Of a DNA stretch of 55,513 bases, positions 158 through 7,205 are shown in pieces (within the stretch, counting starts at the first letter, position 1; every line of letters begins with the position of its first letter). The stretch is from Desulfurococcales archaeon. GTDB taxonomy: Archaea > Thermoproteota > Thermoprotei_A > Sulfolobales > NBVN01. The notes beneath the pieces are model-generated. The model saw only the letters and a list, made by a program, of their open reading frames with translations. It made no database searches and had not been told where the DNA came from. The stretch is from assembly GCA_023255965.1 (NCBI GenBank), contig JAGDWE010000009.1, forward strand, positions 1-55,513, given 5' to 3'. A program made the translations under genes and the position numbers.

Positions 158-841
158 TTACGGACTCATTAATAATTTATTTATAATGTGGGTTAATTCC
201 CTTAAATTATTTATCTCATAATAATTGGTGATCTTTAGTTCGCTAAGTAATTTACTGCATGAGCTACAATTAAATAACACAGGATATCCGACGACCTTAA
301 AGGCGCTTACATCCCAATCAGCATCACCTACATAAATAAAGTACTTAGGTGACATCCCAAATAATGTAGCTAATTTGTAAATGACTGCATCCTTCCTAAG
401 CGGATTAACGACTTCGATTCCGTAGGGAAGCAAACAGCCGTTATTATCGAAGAGCAACTTATTAGCGTATATCGTTGTAATACCTAGTTTGCTTCCAACA
501 AGCTCTGCTAGAATATCTATCCCACCGCTAACTATAGCTGTTTTAACGCCTAAGTTATGGAGGTAGTTACATAATTCATCTGCACCGTCATTTAAGGTCA
601 GTACTTTAAATGCCTTAATCACCTCATCACGTTGTATGCACCCCTTCGACGTAAGTAATTTCAAGTCCCTACGCATCCACTCATCATACGTTATTACTCC
701 CTTGTAGAATAGTTCCACATTAACCCTCCTGTAGTCGTCATCCTGAACTCCGAAGTAGCTATGTAGGTACTCCCACGAACTCTTAATAGGTACGAGGACG
801 CCGTCTAAGTCAAAAACCACTGCTAGCCTCCTCTTCAACAT
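158..841 (-). CDS. HAD-superfamily phosphatase, phosphoserine-phosphatase-like
   Basis: This is a cytoplasmic hydrolase of the haloacid dehalogenase fold, 227 aa. Motif I is DLDGVL at residues 11-16, with the nucleophile Asp11 and the acid/base Asp13. Motif II is the SGG near residue 105. A lysine of motif III follows in the PLRKDA segment, and motif IV is VGDADWD near residue 171. A helical cap lies between motifs I and II, the arrangement of the phosphoserine phosphatase subgroup. The substrate cannot be read from sequence; phosphoserine, a phosphoglycolate or another small phosphate ester are possible. It is a single gene, 78 bp downstream of the operon at 920-4885 on the same strand. Confidence 0.8.
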   Translation of the reverse strand: MLKRRLAVVFDLDGVLVPIKSSWEYLHSYFGVQDDDYRRVNVELFYKGVITYDEWMRRDLKLLTSKGCIQRDEVIKAFKVLTLNDGADELCNYLHNLGVKTAIVSGGIDILAELVGSKLGITTIYANKLLFDNNGCLLPYGIEVVNPLRKDAVIYKLATLFGMSPKYFIYVGDADWDVSAFKVVGYPVLFNCSSCSKLLSELKITNYYEINNLRELTHIINKLLMSP

Positions 842-919: not shown

Positions 920-1765
920 TCATTCTCGGCGCGCTACCTTATCGCGAAGGGCGTTCATGAAGTTAATTAAGAACTCATCGATTGATGCGGGAGCTCCCTT
1001 GCTCTCCAACGAGTTAATTAGTAAGCCACATAAGTTAGTACCGCTTTTATCAAGTACTCTAAGATATATTTCGGAGATACATAGATTGTTCAACTCTGTT
1101 AATGCCTCTATCATCTCTAATCTCTGCCTCATAATCCGTGCTAATTCAGCCGTATACGCAAGTACTAGGATATCTACTAAGCACTCTAAATTCTCAAACT
1201 TAAGTAAAGACCTAATCACATTCTTACTGCTGCTTACGATATTGAAAATCGCCTTCTTAATTAACTCCTTAATTCCCGCAACGTTTCTTAGGTAATGCAA
1301 ATGCTTTAATTCATCTATTAATTCATCTATATTAATTCCATAATTCATCAACCATTTATTCACGCCTTCAAGCTCCGTAATTGCTTCCCCTAGGGCACTC
1401 CATCCACTTGATAAATTGATACTTAATTCAGTAAGTGCTGTAATTAATGAGTTAAAAGCCTTAGATATTAAGGGGATTAAGTGGCTAAGGGTTTCAACTA
1501 CGGAGGCATAGTTGATCCTTAACTCTACAACTCTACATACATCCCTAATTAGATTCATGTAGGGTTCTGAGGCGCTGACCCTTAGCTCCTTTCCATCAAC
1601 TATAAGTAGTAGTTCATTACCTACGAGTTCAATTCTCCTTATGGACTCGATACTGACATCGCTTACTATATTACCCTCTAAGCTATACACCAGCAATTTA
1701 TTGTTCAATATAGAGATACTACATTGAATTACCTCCCCATCTAAGTAGCATCTAGCTAGTACCAC
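920..1765 (-). CDS. Unknown protein with PH-like N-terminal domain and helical C-terminus
   Basis: I do not recognise a named family. The 281-aa product begins with about 75 residues of alternating beta strands closed by one amphipathic helix (SEPYMNLIRDVCRVVEL), a pattern like PH/GRAM-type domains. The remaining ~200 residues are almost entirely helical with heptad-like leucine spacing. There is no signal peptide or membrane segment. The GTG start lies inside the preceding gene (14-nt overlap), so it is almost certainly co-translated with the polytopic protein encoded there. The overlap suggests a cytoplasmic partner of that membrane protein. The PH comparison rests on a strand pattern read by eye and is an inference. 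Confidence 0.65.
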   Translation of the reverse strand: MVLARCYLDGEVIQCSISILNNKLLVYSLEGNIVSDVSIESIRRIELVGNELLLIVDGKELRVSASEPYMNLIRDVCRVVELRINYASVVETLSHLIPLISKAFNSLITALTELSINLSSGWSALGEAITELEGVNKWLMNYGINIDELIDELKHLHYLRNVAGIKELIKKAIFNIVSSSKNVIRSLLKFENLECLVDILVLAYTAELARIMRQRLEMIEALTELNNLCISEIYLRVLDKSGTNLCGLLINSLESKGAPASIDEFLINFMNALRDKVARRE

Positions 1766-3914
1766 TTAATTCCCTCTTAATGACTCTACCATCATAAACA
1801 ACGCCCCCTCTACTACTTAAATATATGCTTAGAAGCCAGCTAAGTACGTTACTCGGTAGAGGTATTTCATCGACATTAATGGAACCATCTATAGAGAGCC
1901 TATCATCAAGGTATTTAATAAAGAGAGATAAATACTTCGCTCTCTTAATGGTAATGTCGATTAGCTTAACATATCCAAGTAACTCACTTAGAGGCTTCAA
2001 TTTACTATTCACTAGGTACTCCACCAATTCCCTGCAAGGTCTATCGATGTAAGTCAGCAATTCATTAACAGCAGCACTTACATCGCTTTTACGTGTTGTG
2101 AGGTAATCTAATTTAATGTCCTTAAGATCGATTAAATTACTCATCTCCAATTCCCTAACATGGACTTCGTTATTAACTGCATCTAAGAACCTAGTCAAAT
2201 TATCTCTCAACGCCATACATACCTCCCTAATATTGAATAACGCTCTAATCGGAGTTACCCCGAACTCTGGCAACACCTTAAATGTTTCACGTAGGTTGTT
2301 TAGAGCGGTTAATACTTCCGAACTACTCATGTCCTTGAACGAATTAATCAACGCCTCTAAATCCCTGCCTAACTTAGTTAAATTGCTGTAGGTGGTCATC
2401 ACCTCATCTTTAAATTCACTATGTACCTTATCGATGAATTCCATGTAGATCTTAATGACGTCGAGCATGACCAAATCCTCAGAGCACTTTATCGGCGCAT
2501 TAACGCTATATGCTTCCTTCCCCAGGACCTCGCGATAATATGTTGATATAACGCTTAATACATTTCCGCATAAGTCGCATAATCTCTTTAGTACTTTCTT
2601 TAATTTAAGTAATGCATCGGGCAACGCCTCTAAATCATTAACTCCCTCTAAGTGTTTAAGCATGTCCGATACATGGCTATCCATCAACCCTGAGGTAAGT
2701 GCGATGCTATTGTATAAATTCTTAACATCATTAACTAAGCTCGCGAATTTATTTAATAAAGAATTCTTAATGCTATTTAAGGACTTACTTAATTCGGTAT
2801 CTAACCTGTTTAATACTTCATTGATGCGTCTAGCTGTTGTCAAGGACTTACTTAATTCCCAACTAATGTTGTCTAATTCCTTAGAGATTTTAGTTAATGA
2901 ATCCTTAACCTCGTTAATGCTTAGCCTCGTTGAGGCGTCGCTAACTTCCTCAATAACTGAGGCATATAAATTTAAATCGCTTCTTAAGCTATTAATCATC
3001 GACATAGCCTTAGATCTCAGTACGTTCGATCTTGTTAGCATTTCATTAAAGGCATTAAGTAGGGCGAATATCGATGCAGTTAAAGGCACAACCACTAAGT
3101 ACCCATAGCGGGTTGCCTGCGGAACTGAAATGACGTTTTGAGAAACTATAACCACGGTTAATACGGCCGCCACGCATAGTACGTACGATGTAGCGGTACG
3201 AATTAGTATGTCCCTAAGCCCATAGGCTTCCGGTAAGAACCTCTTTTTAATGAGTAAGTACATGCAACCTACTAAGGTGTATATAAGTATTATCGACATG
3301 AAGAACATAGCAGGCTTTAATTCAAAGCCAGGTAACATGTAGGTCATATTAAGCATGCTTATATTTGGTACGAACTTGATGTTGGTTATTAGGAGGGGTA
3401 GGATTAGGTAGGGCGCATATATAGACATTAATGATACGGCATATATTATTAAATCCTCTAGACTATTAGACAACACTATATAAGCAGCTATTAAGGCTGG
3501 TGAGGCATAACCCGTAGGATCTAACATAGCCACTGGTAGTGATGCAATTATAAGTATATGGGGCACTATAAAGCCATGTCGCTGTCTCATTACTAAGAAT
3601 GCTGGGATGAAATTAGTTGCCGATATTGCCGCCAATATTAATGAAATGTAGTATGGATCTAATGGACTTCTAAATGCCACTCCTGATACGCTATAACCGA
3701 AGATAAGAGCTACAGATAACGAAATGTACGATAATGCTACACTCTTCCTTATATCTTGGGAGAAAATGTAAAAGTAGGTGATTATCAATATGACAGCATA
3801 TGCTGTGGAAAACAACATTAGCTGAGCCGTACTTATGCCTCCGCTTAATACGTATAGTAGTAGCTCAAACACCAAGACAAATACTATTAGCTGCAGCAGC
3901 TCTATAAATCTCAC
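1752..3914 (-). CDS. Polytopic membrane protein with long cytoplasmic coiled-coil domain
   Basis: The product is 720 aa. Residues 1-290 contain about eight hydrophobic segments, the first at residues 5-24. Residues from about 295 to the end form a soluble domain dominated by long helices with repeated Leu/Ile heptads and many Asn, Ser and Lys residues (for example DSLTKISKELDNISWELSKS), consistent with coiled coil. No enzyme motif is visible. The GTG start overlaps the stop of the upstream gene by four bases, and its own end overlaps the downstream gene by 14, so the three genes form one translational unit. The layout (membrane anchor plus large coiled-coil platform) suits a scaffold or membrane-shaping protein; that role is inferred. 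No family recognised. Confidence 0.75.
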   Translation of the reverse strand: MRFIELLQLIVFVLVFELLLYVLSGGISTAQLMLFSTAYAVILIITYFYIFSQDIRKSVALSYISLSVALIFGYSVSGVAFRSPLDPYYISLILAAISATNFIPAFLVMRQRHGFIVPHILIIASLPVAMLDPTGYASPALIAAYIVLSNSLEDLIIYAVSLMSIYAPYLILPLLITNIKFVPNISMLNMTYMLPGFELKPAMFFMSIILIYTLVGCMYLLIKKRFLPEAYGLRDILIRTATSYVLCVAAVLTVVIVSQNVISVPQATRYGYLVVVPLTASIFALLNAFNEMLTRSNVLRSKAMSMINSLRSDLNLYASVIEEVSDASTRLSINEVKDSLTKISKELDNISWELSKSLTTARRINEVLNRLDTELSKSLNSIKNSLLNKFASLVNDVKNLYNSIALTSGLMDSHVSDMLKHLEGVNDLEALPDALLKLKKVLKRLCDLCGNVLSVISTYYREVLGKEAYSVNAPIKCSEDLVMLDVIKIYMEFIDKVHSEFKDEVMTTYSNLTKLGRDLEALINSFKDMSSSEVLTALNNLRETFKVLPEFGVTPIRALFNIREVCMALRDNLTRFLDAVNNEVHVRELEMSNLIDLKDIKLDYLTTRKSDVSAAVNELLTYIDRPCRELVEYLVNSKLKPLSELLGYVKLIDITIKRAKYLSLFIKYLDDRLSIDGSINVDEIPLPSNVLSWLLSIYLSSRGGVVYDGRVIKRELSGTS

Positions 3915-4885
3915 TTAAGGCCCACCATATATGTCAATTTATCGACATTTATATGTAGACGAAGCTCTCCAGATACATCATATATCTTATGGATGTACCT
4001 CCTGAGGGATTTAATTAAGTGCCCTCTGGGCTCTATGGTTATTACCATGGATTCGTATTGGCCCTTAATCTCCGAAATCCTAATTAAGTCCCTAGATATC
4101 CTTCTAAAGGCCTCAGAATCAACATGTAGAATAAGATCCTTGGTTATAAGGAGTAATGATTCATTAATGTAGGGCTCATAATCGCCTATCAAGTGATGTA
4201 AGAATTTAATGGTATTCACTAAATTCCCAAAGACCTCTAACTCAATGCCGGGAAAACATAAAATCATACCTAATTTACCATAGGCGTCTAGGTAAGTACT
4301 AATCTCACTATAGTTGTCTAATAATGCATTAATACACGATCTTAAGGGATCTATGCCTTTAATTAGCCTCAAATACGTGAATAATTTATCGCTCGTAACT
4401 AATATCGAGTTACTAAGTCCCCCCTCAAGAACCATGGCGATGTAGATTAAGGCATTTAAGGCATCATTATCACTTAACATGCTCGGAAGCCTCATTAAAG
4501 TAAGTACATTACATCTACTATTCAAATCTTTAACTTCCTTAAGCAACTCATACGTTACATATAGGCTATACGGTTCGGTGCTGATTATCACCAAGGCATT
4601 CATGATATCGCTAATGATGTGCGGCTTAACTTTATTAATCGAATCAATTATGAGATGGTTCTTGGAAAGATTGATCCATAGGCCATCTAAATTAAGCTTA
4701 GGTAATGTAATTACGTTACCCTCATTTGGTGTTACGTTATCTAACAATATATATAATGTACTACTACCTAGGCGATCTCTTAAAACCCTATACTCATCTA
4801 AGGATGAGGTTATTACGACATTAACATACGACTTAACATCAGTGGAATCTATTAGGCGAAATAATCTGTCTAGATACTGACTCAT
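3911..4885 (-). CDS. Divergent tubulin/FtsZ-fold protein candidate lacking GTPase loops
   Basis: A longer frame opens at 4909. I prefer the ATG at 4885 because GGTGATG lies just upstream of it; this gives about 324 aa. The strand/helix order follows FtsZ closely. A VNVVIT strand is followed by LYILLDN, then ALVIIST where FtsZ has its T4-loop strand, then CNVLTLMRLP (compare LTVAVVTLPF), then NSILVTSDKLF (compare DTLVVIPNEKLF). A long helix follows, then KLGMILCFPG, YINESLLLITKDLIL and YESMVITIEPRG, which match the order of the C-terminal domain. The glycine-rich GGGTGTG loop is replaced by STEPYSL and the T7 loop is degenerate, so GTP hydrolysis is unlikely. It is the first gene of a three-gene operon. 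The fold call is made by eye and is unproven; the gene itself is solid. Confidence 0.6.
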   Translation of the reverse strand: MSQYLDRLFRLIDSTDVKSYVNVVITSSLDEYRVLRDRLGSSTLYILLDNVTPNEGNVITLPKLNLDGLWINLSKNHLIIDSINKVKPHIISDIMNALVIISTEPYSLYVTYELLKEVKDLNSRCNVLTLMRLPSMLSDNDALNALIYIAMVLEGGLSNSILVTSDKLFTYLRLIKGIDPLRSCINALLDNYSEISTYLDAYGKLGMILCFPGIELEVFGNLVNTIKFLHHLIGDYEPYINESLLLITKDLILHVDSEAFRRISRDLIRISEIKGQYESMVITIEPRGHLIKSLRRYIHKIYDVSGELRLHINVDKLTYMVGLK

Positions 4886-5064: not shown

Positions 5065-5745
5065 ATGCAACCGCCTGATTTCTTAGACAAGTTAATGGCG
5101 CTCTATGAAAGGCTCAGCAAAAGGCATTGCATCAACCTAGATGATGTAGGGGTGTATGAGGTAATTAATTACCTGCTTGAAAACGGTGTATTACATAGAG
5201 GCCTTAACCGTGAGTTATGCGTTAAATCTAGGGTTAAGTTCGCCTTAGAGTTAATTAGATTAGGTAGTGATGTAGAGAGGGTAGCCCTCTCACTCGACTG
5301 GCGGGATTTTGAGGAATTAATTAGCGAGTGCTTAATCATGAATAATTATCTAATCATTAAGAACCTTAGGTTCGGGGTTAAGAGGAATGAGGTAGACGTT
5401 ATTGGCGTTAATACGGCATCATCCATCGCTGTCGTAGTGGACTGCAAACATTGGAGTCCAGGATACAGTAAGAAAGGGAAGTTAATTAGTGTATGCCGTG
5501 AACATAGACGTAAGGTTGAGGAATTAAGTAGCCAATGTTCATCGCTTATGGGCACGTACTTACAGTTAGCTAAAGCCAAGTACTTAATACCAGTGGTAGT
5601 GACATTAACTGACGTAATACGTGGATACTTTAACGGGGTATTTATAGTGCCCATATATAGATTTAATGACTACATAGTAAATATCAATTACTATGTAGAA
5701 TTGCTGGGCAGGTCTGAGTTGGTAAGGAATAAGTGTTTTAGCTGA
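5065..5745 (+). CDS. Mrr/RecB-like restriction endonuclease-fold protein
   Basis: The product is 226 aa and soluble. The segment WRDFEELISECL (79-90) is the typical entry helix of the Mrr-type catalytic domain. It is followed by NEVDVIG (108-114) with the catalytic Asp111 and VVDCKHW (124-130) with Asp126 and Lys128, giving a PD-(D/E)xK arrangement. The N-terminal ~75 residues are helical and could bind DNA. No methyltransferase lies beside it, so it is not an obvious restriction-modification system. A role in DNA repair or in defence against foreign DNA is possible. The start is uncertain: ATG 5065 is used, ATG 5095 is an alternative. Confidence 0.7.
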   Translation: MQPPDFLDKLMALYERLSKRHCINLDDVGVYEVINYLLENGVLHRGLNRELCVKSRVKFALELIRLGSDVERVALSLDWRDFEELISECLIMNNYLIIKNLRFGVKRNEVDVIGVNTASSIAVVVDCKHWSPGYSKKGKLISVCREHRRKVEELSSQCSSLMGTYLQLAKAKYLIPVVVTLTDVIRGYFNGVFIVPIYRFNDYIVNINYYVELLGRSELVRNKCFS

Positions 5746-6032: not shown

Positions 6033-7205
6033 ATGGTTATTGAGGTATTGTTGGCGGTATTAGTTGCTGAGTTAATCATTTACTTGCTGAGTAACTATCA
6101 TAAGGGGTTCTCGGCAAGGATTAGGAGGACCGGCTTAAACGTAGGTCTATTTACGTTAATGATCGATGTGGGCAAGTTTGCTGGGCTTAAGGTTAGGAGG
6201 TTTAATACCGTGAGTCGCATAGTGGGATTCGTAGGGATAGCTAACCTCATATCTTTAATAGCGTTATTTTACTGGATTGCTATTCCGTCCCTACTTAACA
6301 TAATTAAGTCCGTGACCTCCGCCGGCGTAGTAGGTGAGTCCCCCTTCGTCCCAGTGGTGCCTGGGGTTACGATTAAGGGCCTAAGCATCATCTACTTCCT
6401 CTTAAGCATAGCGATAGCCATAGTCGCACACGAACTATCCCACGCATTAATAGCGATTAACGAAGGCATTGAGGTCCAATCATGGGGGTTAGGGATTTTC
6501 CTGATATTTCCATTCGCATATGTTAGAATCGATGATGAATCATTTAATAAAGCATCACTGTCGAGTAAGGTTAGGGTACTATCGGCCGGCATACTATCTA
6601 ATACCGCGCTAGCCATAGTCGTTCTCCTATTAATGAACTACGTATCTGGGATCCTATATCAGCATATAGCGGTAGTCATATGCGGTTTAGATCGTAGCCT
6701 AGGTCCAGACGCGCCAGCTATATTAGCTAATATACCCGTTCCTTCAGTGATTAACAGCATTAACGGTACTCCGATTAAGATATTAAGTGATTTGAGGAGC
6801 TATTTGATTTCTATAGCTAATAAATCAACGTCGCTTGTGCTGAACGTATCTAAATTTAATTACCTCATAGACGACTCGATAGTTGACTCCATAGACGGTT
6901 ATCAATTAATCGAAGTATATAAGCCCTCATACTATCCTAGGCTAGGTATCTTAGTCGTTGAAGCATATCTACCATCAGTCCCTAAGGAGCTATATTACCT
7001 AGCTAGGGCCTTCTTCTGGATATACCTCGTAAACATAAGCCTAGCAGTGTTTAATGCAGCCCCATTAATTATAACTGACGGAGGTAGGATAATAGATGAA
7101 TTCCTTAGGAAGTACGGCCTACGTAAGGTCAGTAATGTTATTCAGGCATTAACCATAATAATTGTAGTCGTATTACTTATTACTGGTTTTGTGAACTTCA
7201 TTTAG
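6033..7205 (+). CDS. Site-2 protease family zinc metalloprotease (M50)
   Basis: This is a polytopic intramembrane protease, 390 aa. HELSH at residues 133-137 supplies two zinc ligands and the catalytic glutamate. The distal NAAPLIITDGG segment near residue 349 supplies the third ligand Asp (the usual motif is LDG). Hydrophobic segments surround both motifs. Between them, about residues 210-300 form a soluble PDZ-like insert (PSVINSINGTPIKILSDL resembles the PDZ carboxylate-binding start). The family cuts membrane-bound substrates such as anti-sigma-like regulators or signal-peptide remnants; the archaeal substrate is unknown. The 3' end overlaps the convergent aldolase gene by 8 bp. Confidence 0.88.
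   Translation: MVIEVLLAVLVAELIIYLLSNYHKGFSARIRRTGLNVGLFTLMIDVGKFAGLKVRRFNTVSRIVGFVGIANLISLIALFYWIAIPSLLNIIKSVTSAGVVGESPFVPVVPGVTIKGLSIIYFLLSIAIAIVAHELSHALIAINEGIEVQSWGLGIFLIFPFAYVRIDDESFNKASLSSKVRVLSAGILSNTALAIVVLLLMNYVSGILYQHIAVVICGLDRSLGPDAPAILANIPVPSVINSINGTPIKILSDLRSYLISIANKSTSLVLNVSKFNYLIDDSIVDSIDGYQLIEVYKPSYYPRLGILVVEAYLPSVPKELYYLARAFFWIYLVNISLAVFNAAPLIITDGGRIIDEFLRKYGLRKVSNVIQALTIIIVVVLLITGFVNFI

Follow-up and report, generated by a model that had tools for sequence, protein, structure and literature searches.

The window (the whole stretch of DNA that was analysed, 55,513 nucleotides from a Desulfurococcales archaeon) carries near its first letters three genes, here called A, B and C, that overlap one another on the minus strand as an operon headed by A. 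Gene A (3911–4885, minus strand; ATG at 4885, stop at 3911–3913) encodes 324 residues; the initial annotation's claim that this interval codes for a protein stands as to the open reading frame, which is real, and the strand is the minus one (the plus-strand reading contains 35 stops). Homologous frames of similar length in relatives start at the same conserved MS, and A is therefore a real gene. Gene B (1752–3914, minus strand; 720 residues) has a GTG start that shares four bases, GTGA, with the stop of A; about nine membrane spans are predicted within residues 1–290, the part after them is a long, helical coiled coil, and there is a conserved C-terminal motif. It is the large membrane coiled-coil protein with which A had been said to be encoded; no known transporter family was matched by B in Pfam or NCBIfam. 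Gene C (920–1765, minus strand; 281 residues) overlaps B by 14 nt and encodes a beta-rich N-terminus followed by helices; this N-terminus is possibly, on a weak indication, PH-like (the sole Pfam match of one relative of C was bPH_3, non-significant, E 0.06).

A HAD-family phosphatase gene (158–841, minus strand) is a common neighbour of A, on either strand, in the window's archaeal family and is probably not part of the system. A putative NERD/Mrr-like nuclease gene (5065–5745, plus strand) adjoins A, and the gene at 6033–7205 (plus strand) encodes a large membrane protein that contains an HELSH motif and appears to be a site-2 protease. Both genes are oriented away from A, and relatives often have them beside A too.

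Protein A was matched by no Pfam or NCBIfam family, its family profile found no PDB sequence, and a peptide-pattern search of named genome contigs with the window protein returned nothing. In the window's family A diverges rapidly and has no conserved active site; the best-conserved stretch outside the folded core is the first 20 residues (4826–4885, minus strand; MSxxLDRLxRLIDSxDxxSY in an alignment of 11 sequences), where M1, S2 and Y20 are invariant and D6, R10, L11 and D16 nearly so. In the model of the window's A a helix (residues 3–14) precedes strand S1, at low confidence (pLDDT 72 and 61 for residues 1–20); the segment may be a partner-binding element.

The fold of A was modelled with AlphaFold2 from an alignment of 22 family members (pLDDT 86.4, pTM 0.86). 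Aligned to tubulin by VIA-align, the model gave Z 19.6 over 299 residues (rmsd 4.4 Å; residues 21–324 of A), so that both domains are covered, and the tubulin/FtsZ order from the first strand to the C-terminal domain, proposed earlier from the letters alone, was borne out. Foldseek against PDB listed matches to tubulin, CetZ or OdinTubulin, with no other fold among the matches listed and CetZ second-best; against a viral library (E < 1e-3) the model found phage FtsZ, tubulin and PhuZ proteins, one nameless protein and nothing else. A structure prediction whose fold search finds the tubulin family, with both domains aligned, is what the initial annotation had asked for as support. The local patterns compared with FtsZ in the initial annotation lie where it had placed them: NVLTLMRLP on strand 126–133 (S5), SILVTSDKLF on strand 160–165 and the following helix (S6–T6), KLGMILCFPG on strand 205–212 (S7) and ESLLLITKD on strand 243–247 (S8). 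A second model was built from relatives only, namely nine A proteins from the GTPase-bearing cassettes described below, with no sequence overlap with the first set (pLDDT 72.7, pTM 0.79); it gave Z 22.8 with residues 19–334 aligned, and its best Foldseek match was CetZ 3zid (E 1.5e-11). Both alignments were shallow, with 22 and 9 rows; in both models an N-terminal Rossmann-like domain and a C-terminal tubulin domain form one continuous arrangement. Identity in the structural alignments was about 10–16%.

Homology was also assessed by profile comparison, in which A2 denotes the alignment of A from the window's family and A16 that of 22 A proteins of Z-bearing-type cassettes from other lineages (Z, the cassette GTPase). 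Compared directly by hhalign, the window family's profile was at chance against FtsZ (6 of 100 shuffles scored as high) and at chance against Z, and the sequence case for A therefore rests on intermediates; by way of orthologues in other lineages the similarity rises well above chance. A2 matched A16 at E 1.7e-6. The match of A16 to FtsZ had E 2.4e-4 and a score of 39.4, against 20.5 for the highest-scoring of 40 shuffles; its 179 columns start ahead of T4, take in T6 and reach into the C-terminal domain. Pfam Tubulin (PF00091) matched 12 of the 22 A16 members (best E 3.8e-4, below the curated cut-off), and no other Pfam family matched more than one of the 22. The negative controls, A16 against C and against B, were at or near chance; A15, the most conserved A subgroup, gave a weak hhalign match to FtsZ (4 of 40 shuffles as high). 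A match to PF13809 is absent from A and its relatives and present in the Z proteins. These results support the tubulin-superfamily fold of A in both domains, the membership of the window's family resting on the models and on a transitive sequence link.

In FtsZ and tubulin the GTP site is marked by loop T1 (GxGGxGxN in FtsZ), by T4, the tubulin signature (GGGTGxG), and by the catalytic T7 loop (NxDxxD/E). At the T1 position of A (residues 27–30, 4796–4807, minus strand), after strand 22–26, the window protein reads SSLDEYRVL and has no glycine motif; at the T4 position after S4 (residues 103–110, 4556–4579, minus strand) it reads TEPYSLYV. Neither the T1 nor the T4 motif was found in the window protein or in the aligned family members, in agreement with the earlier statement that the GTP-binding loops are gone. 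After the H7 region no conserved acidic pair (T7) was seen, in a part of the alignment that is uncertain. T1 is missing from A proteins throughout. T4 varies: FtsZ has AGMGGGTGTGAAP at this position, proteins of family f17 have SSIWDGVGSALLP, f23 has AGVAGD and f3 has AEFNRREE, WDGVGSA is also among the decay stages, and the window has ISTEPYSLYV. The window's A thus stands at the far end of this series of T4 decay.

Elsewhere in Thermoproteota two further proteins are encoded with A, B and C: Z, a GTPase of the Tubulin_2/FtsZl1 kind, and S, a surface protein with a single span. Two weak Pfam Tubulin matches in family f3, which belongs to the window's order, proved to be proteins of about 880 residues with GGGTGSG; the reading of these matches as noise was rejected, as they led to Z and the cassette. 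Z was called Tubulin_2 by Pfam (E 3.6e-12 in f3, 9e-18 in f11). The cassette has a permuted gene order in f9 and f11, has its Z and S on another contig in f4 and occurs also in f17 and f23, families outside the class; A-type proteins were found in f63 and f69 as well. Each window protein was compared with its cassette counterpart, and each match lay above every column-shuffled control: A at a profile E of 8.4e-5, B at an hhalign E of 2.5e-14 and C at a profile E of 8.5e-4. B and C are homologous to their counterparts in the GTPase-bearing cassettes, and the whole A-B-C of the window is, to judge from these profiles, orthologous to the A-B-C module of the FtsZl1-bearing cassettes. The initial annotation had proposed a relic or repurposed protein, which is plausible; a more fitting description of A is that of one subunit in a conserved cassette to which, elsewhere, a Tubulin_2 GTPase also belongs. 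Many further matches of B in other genomes (about 16–55 bits) were set aside as coiled-coil noise.

Within the window's family A was found in 22 of 31 genomes, one copy each, a count that is probably a lower bound since the search profile was made without the most divergent genus, whose members reach E < 1e-83 with a fuller profile; all 11 near-complete genomes (at least 90% complete) have it. The A profile found none in the other 198 genomes of the class. In the loci read, A, B and C kept this order across the family's genera as far as the contigs reached. The Z search of the family's 31 genomes returned one weak coiled-coil match and no Z, and Pfam Tubulin (PF00091) had no match among the 25 family genomes searched. 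In the host genome the genes of CdvA, CdvB and CdvC adjoin one another (locus L058). The CdvC of this genome shares 79% identity with that of Sulfolobales MAG SKYB66 and 67% with the CdvC of Zestosphaera tikiterensis NZ3, whose assembly carries A too. A second ESCRT-III paralogue lies apart from the cdvABC cluster (L059, 2951–3646, plus strand). Thermoproteales have been reported to be without both FtsZ and ESCRT (PMC7617429), and CdvA relatives are now reported even there (PMC10936438). The window genome is not among the Thermoproteales that have neither, because it encodes CdvABC and its CdvC is closest to those of Sulfolobales MAGs and Zestosphaera; it belongs near Zestosphaera, not in Thermoproteales, and the initial annotation's premise of a lineage with neither FtsZ nor Cdv fails. 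On the same grounds a division role is not called for.

Compared with known systems, A belongs to the same superfamily as Tubulin_2/FtsZl1 (PF13809), a member of which, Z, is encoded with A, B and C in other archaea, and the gene context is membrane-associated; FtsZl1 keeps GGGTGxG and a long C-terminal coiled coil (about 880 residues here), whereas A is without the motif and has about 320–390 residues in most members. The C-terminal tubulin domain is present in the A model, and the authors of the FtsZl1 family could not identify that of their proteins (PMC2875224). CetZ of Haloferax and Methanosaeta is, like A, an archaeal, compact two-domain tubulin; unlike A, which is without GTP loops, it binds GTP, polymerises and is known from Euryarchaeota. 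In both domains the strands and helices of A follow the order seen in FtsZ, and the wider A family matches the FtsZ profile; A differs in having neither the T1/T4 motifs nor a division-gene context, and its cells encode CdvABC. SSO1376 of Saccharolobus solfataricus is also a crenarchaeal tubulin-superfamily protein, described as an FtsZl1 with N-terminal membrane helices (PMC2875224); it keeps the GTP motifs, resembles the N-terminally membrane-anchored Tubulin_2 type of genomes G078 and G213 and is not an A protein.

Taken together, S, Z, A, B and C look like a membrane-spanning cytoskeletal complex. In the Z-bearing cassettes A would most likely be a non-catalytic subunit of tubulin fold that docks on Z, whether as cap, as seed or as copolymer, and B, perhaps with C, would hold A at the membrane. 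We infer complex formation, attachment to the membrane through B and C, and a scaffold function. The window's family has lost Z and yielded no other GTP-binding tubulin, on which ground A-B-C would most likely work without GTP there. The reading that we hold to be probable takes A for a tubulin-superfamily member that is not a GTPase and is the conserved partner of the membrane protein B and of C, a presumably cytoplasmic protein. In this family A-B-C would form a scaffold that acts without GTP on the inner side of the membrane; it may organise the shape of the envelope or the formation of vesicles, next to the Cdv/ESCRT-III machinery for division. Put forward more tentatively is the wider proposal that a lineage of Cdv-bearing crenarchaea kept a GTP-less tubulin-based membrane skeleton, in which a pseudo-tubulin that formerly partnered a Tubulin_2 GTPase now self-assembles on its membrane anchor. 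An unrelated binding role on the old fold is possible, given that A evolves fast and has no conserved catalytic site.

A module serving division or chromosome positioning as an accessory to Cdv/ESCRT-III, for example in placing the division site, with the tubulin fold keeping its link to cytokinesis, would account for the single copy of A in every near-complete family genome, as expected of a core function; the membrane anchor and long coiled coil of B are in keeping with it, and ESCRT-III and CdvABC are present as possible partners. It is nonetheless rather improbable, as most other genomes of the order that encode Cdv are without A, and the loci read show no cdv genes close to A-B-C; moreover, Makarova and Koonin (2010), who described FtsZl1 as a family and proposed membrane remodelling from its gene context, argued that a direct division role is unlikely since FtsZl1 usually coexists with FtsZ (PMC2875224). 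Unlikely, too, is the view of A as a decayed tubulin that forms neither filament nor scaffold and is kept only to serve B, in signalling or transport, as its structural adaptor or sensor: all three genes, with their overlapping frames, are strictly retained, which speaks against it, as does B, which looks like a coiled-coil anchor and matched no transporter, whereas the rapid divergence of A with no conserved active site, the loss of Z in the window's family and the transport or signalling roles that a reviewer of the FtsZl1 paper proposed for FtsZl1 loci (PMC2875224) speak for it. That the fold call is wrong and A is an unrelated alpha/beta protein whose generic Rossmann-like core was matched is strongly disfavoured, a very small chance being left to it by the direct FtsZ comparison at chance and the shallow alignments, against the agreement of two non-overlapping sequence sets over some 290–300 residues including the C-terminal domain, listed PDB fold matches that are all tubulin, FtsZ or CetZ, and the independent sequence evidence from Pfam Tubulin and A16.

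With A the tubulin superfamily gains a non-GTPase branch, extending from Zestosphaera-like crenarchaea to other families of Thermoproteota, and the poorly understood FtsZl1/Tubulin_2 proteins gain a fixed archaeal partner set in S, Z, A, B and C. A lineage without the GTPase that has the pseudo-tubulin and its membrane anchor offers a direct test of such a system without nucleotide-driven dynamics, and genetics could become possible with the cassettes that large, complete genomes in this order (inferred Sulfolobaceae) carry. No description of the A family or of the S-Z-A-B-C set was found in the open-licence papers searched; the supplementary neighbourhood tables of PMC2875224 may list parts of the cassette as uncharacterised genes.

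Several variants were seen among the relatives. In one f11 genome Z is split into two frames about 40 bases apart (L097, 8514–9767 and 9806–11170, plus strand; 417 and 454 residues), with A, B and C remaining open; the GTPase may have been lost there recently. In f11 and f4 the A proteins have an N-terminal CxxGH...CxxCG that looks like a zinc ribbon (L096, 12476–13507; L095, 4971–6002; L097, 13383–14393; L131, 7015–8088) and is missing in the window's family, f3 and f9. Several A proteins of f17 (L250, 1453–2850; L249, 1210–2880; L251, 1099–2607) carry, after the tubulin domain, long charged proline-rich low-complexity C-terminal tails reminiscent of FtsZ/tubulin tails. A second archaeal Tubulin_2-like type occurs in the same order, with more than 1000 residues, N-terminal hydrophobic helices and a GGGTG motif (L099, 7807–10857, plus strand; L100, 7552–10707, minus strand), and is probably of the SSO1376 type; a related form of 883 residues is without the N-terminal helices (L098, 7126–9777, minus strand).
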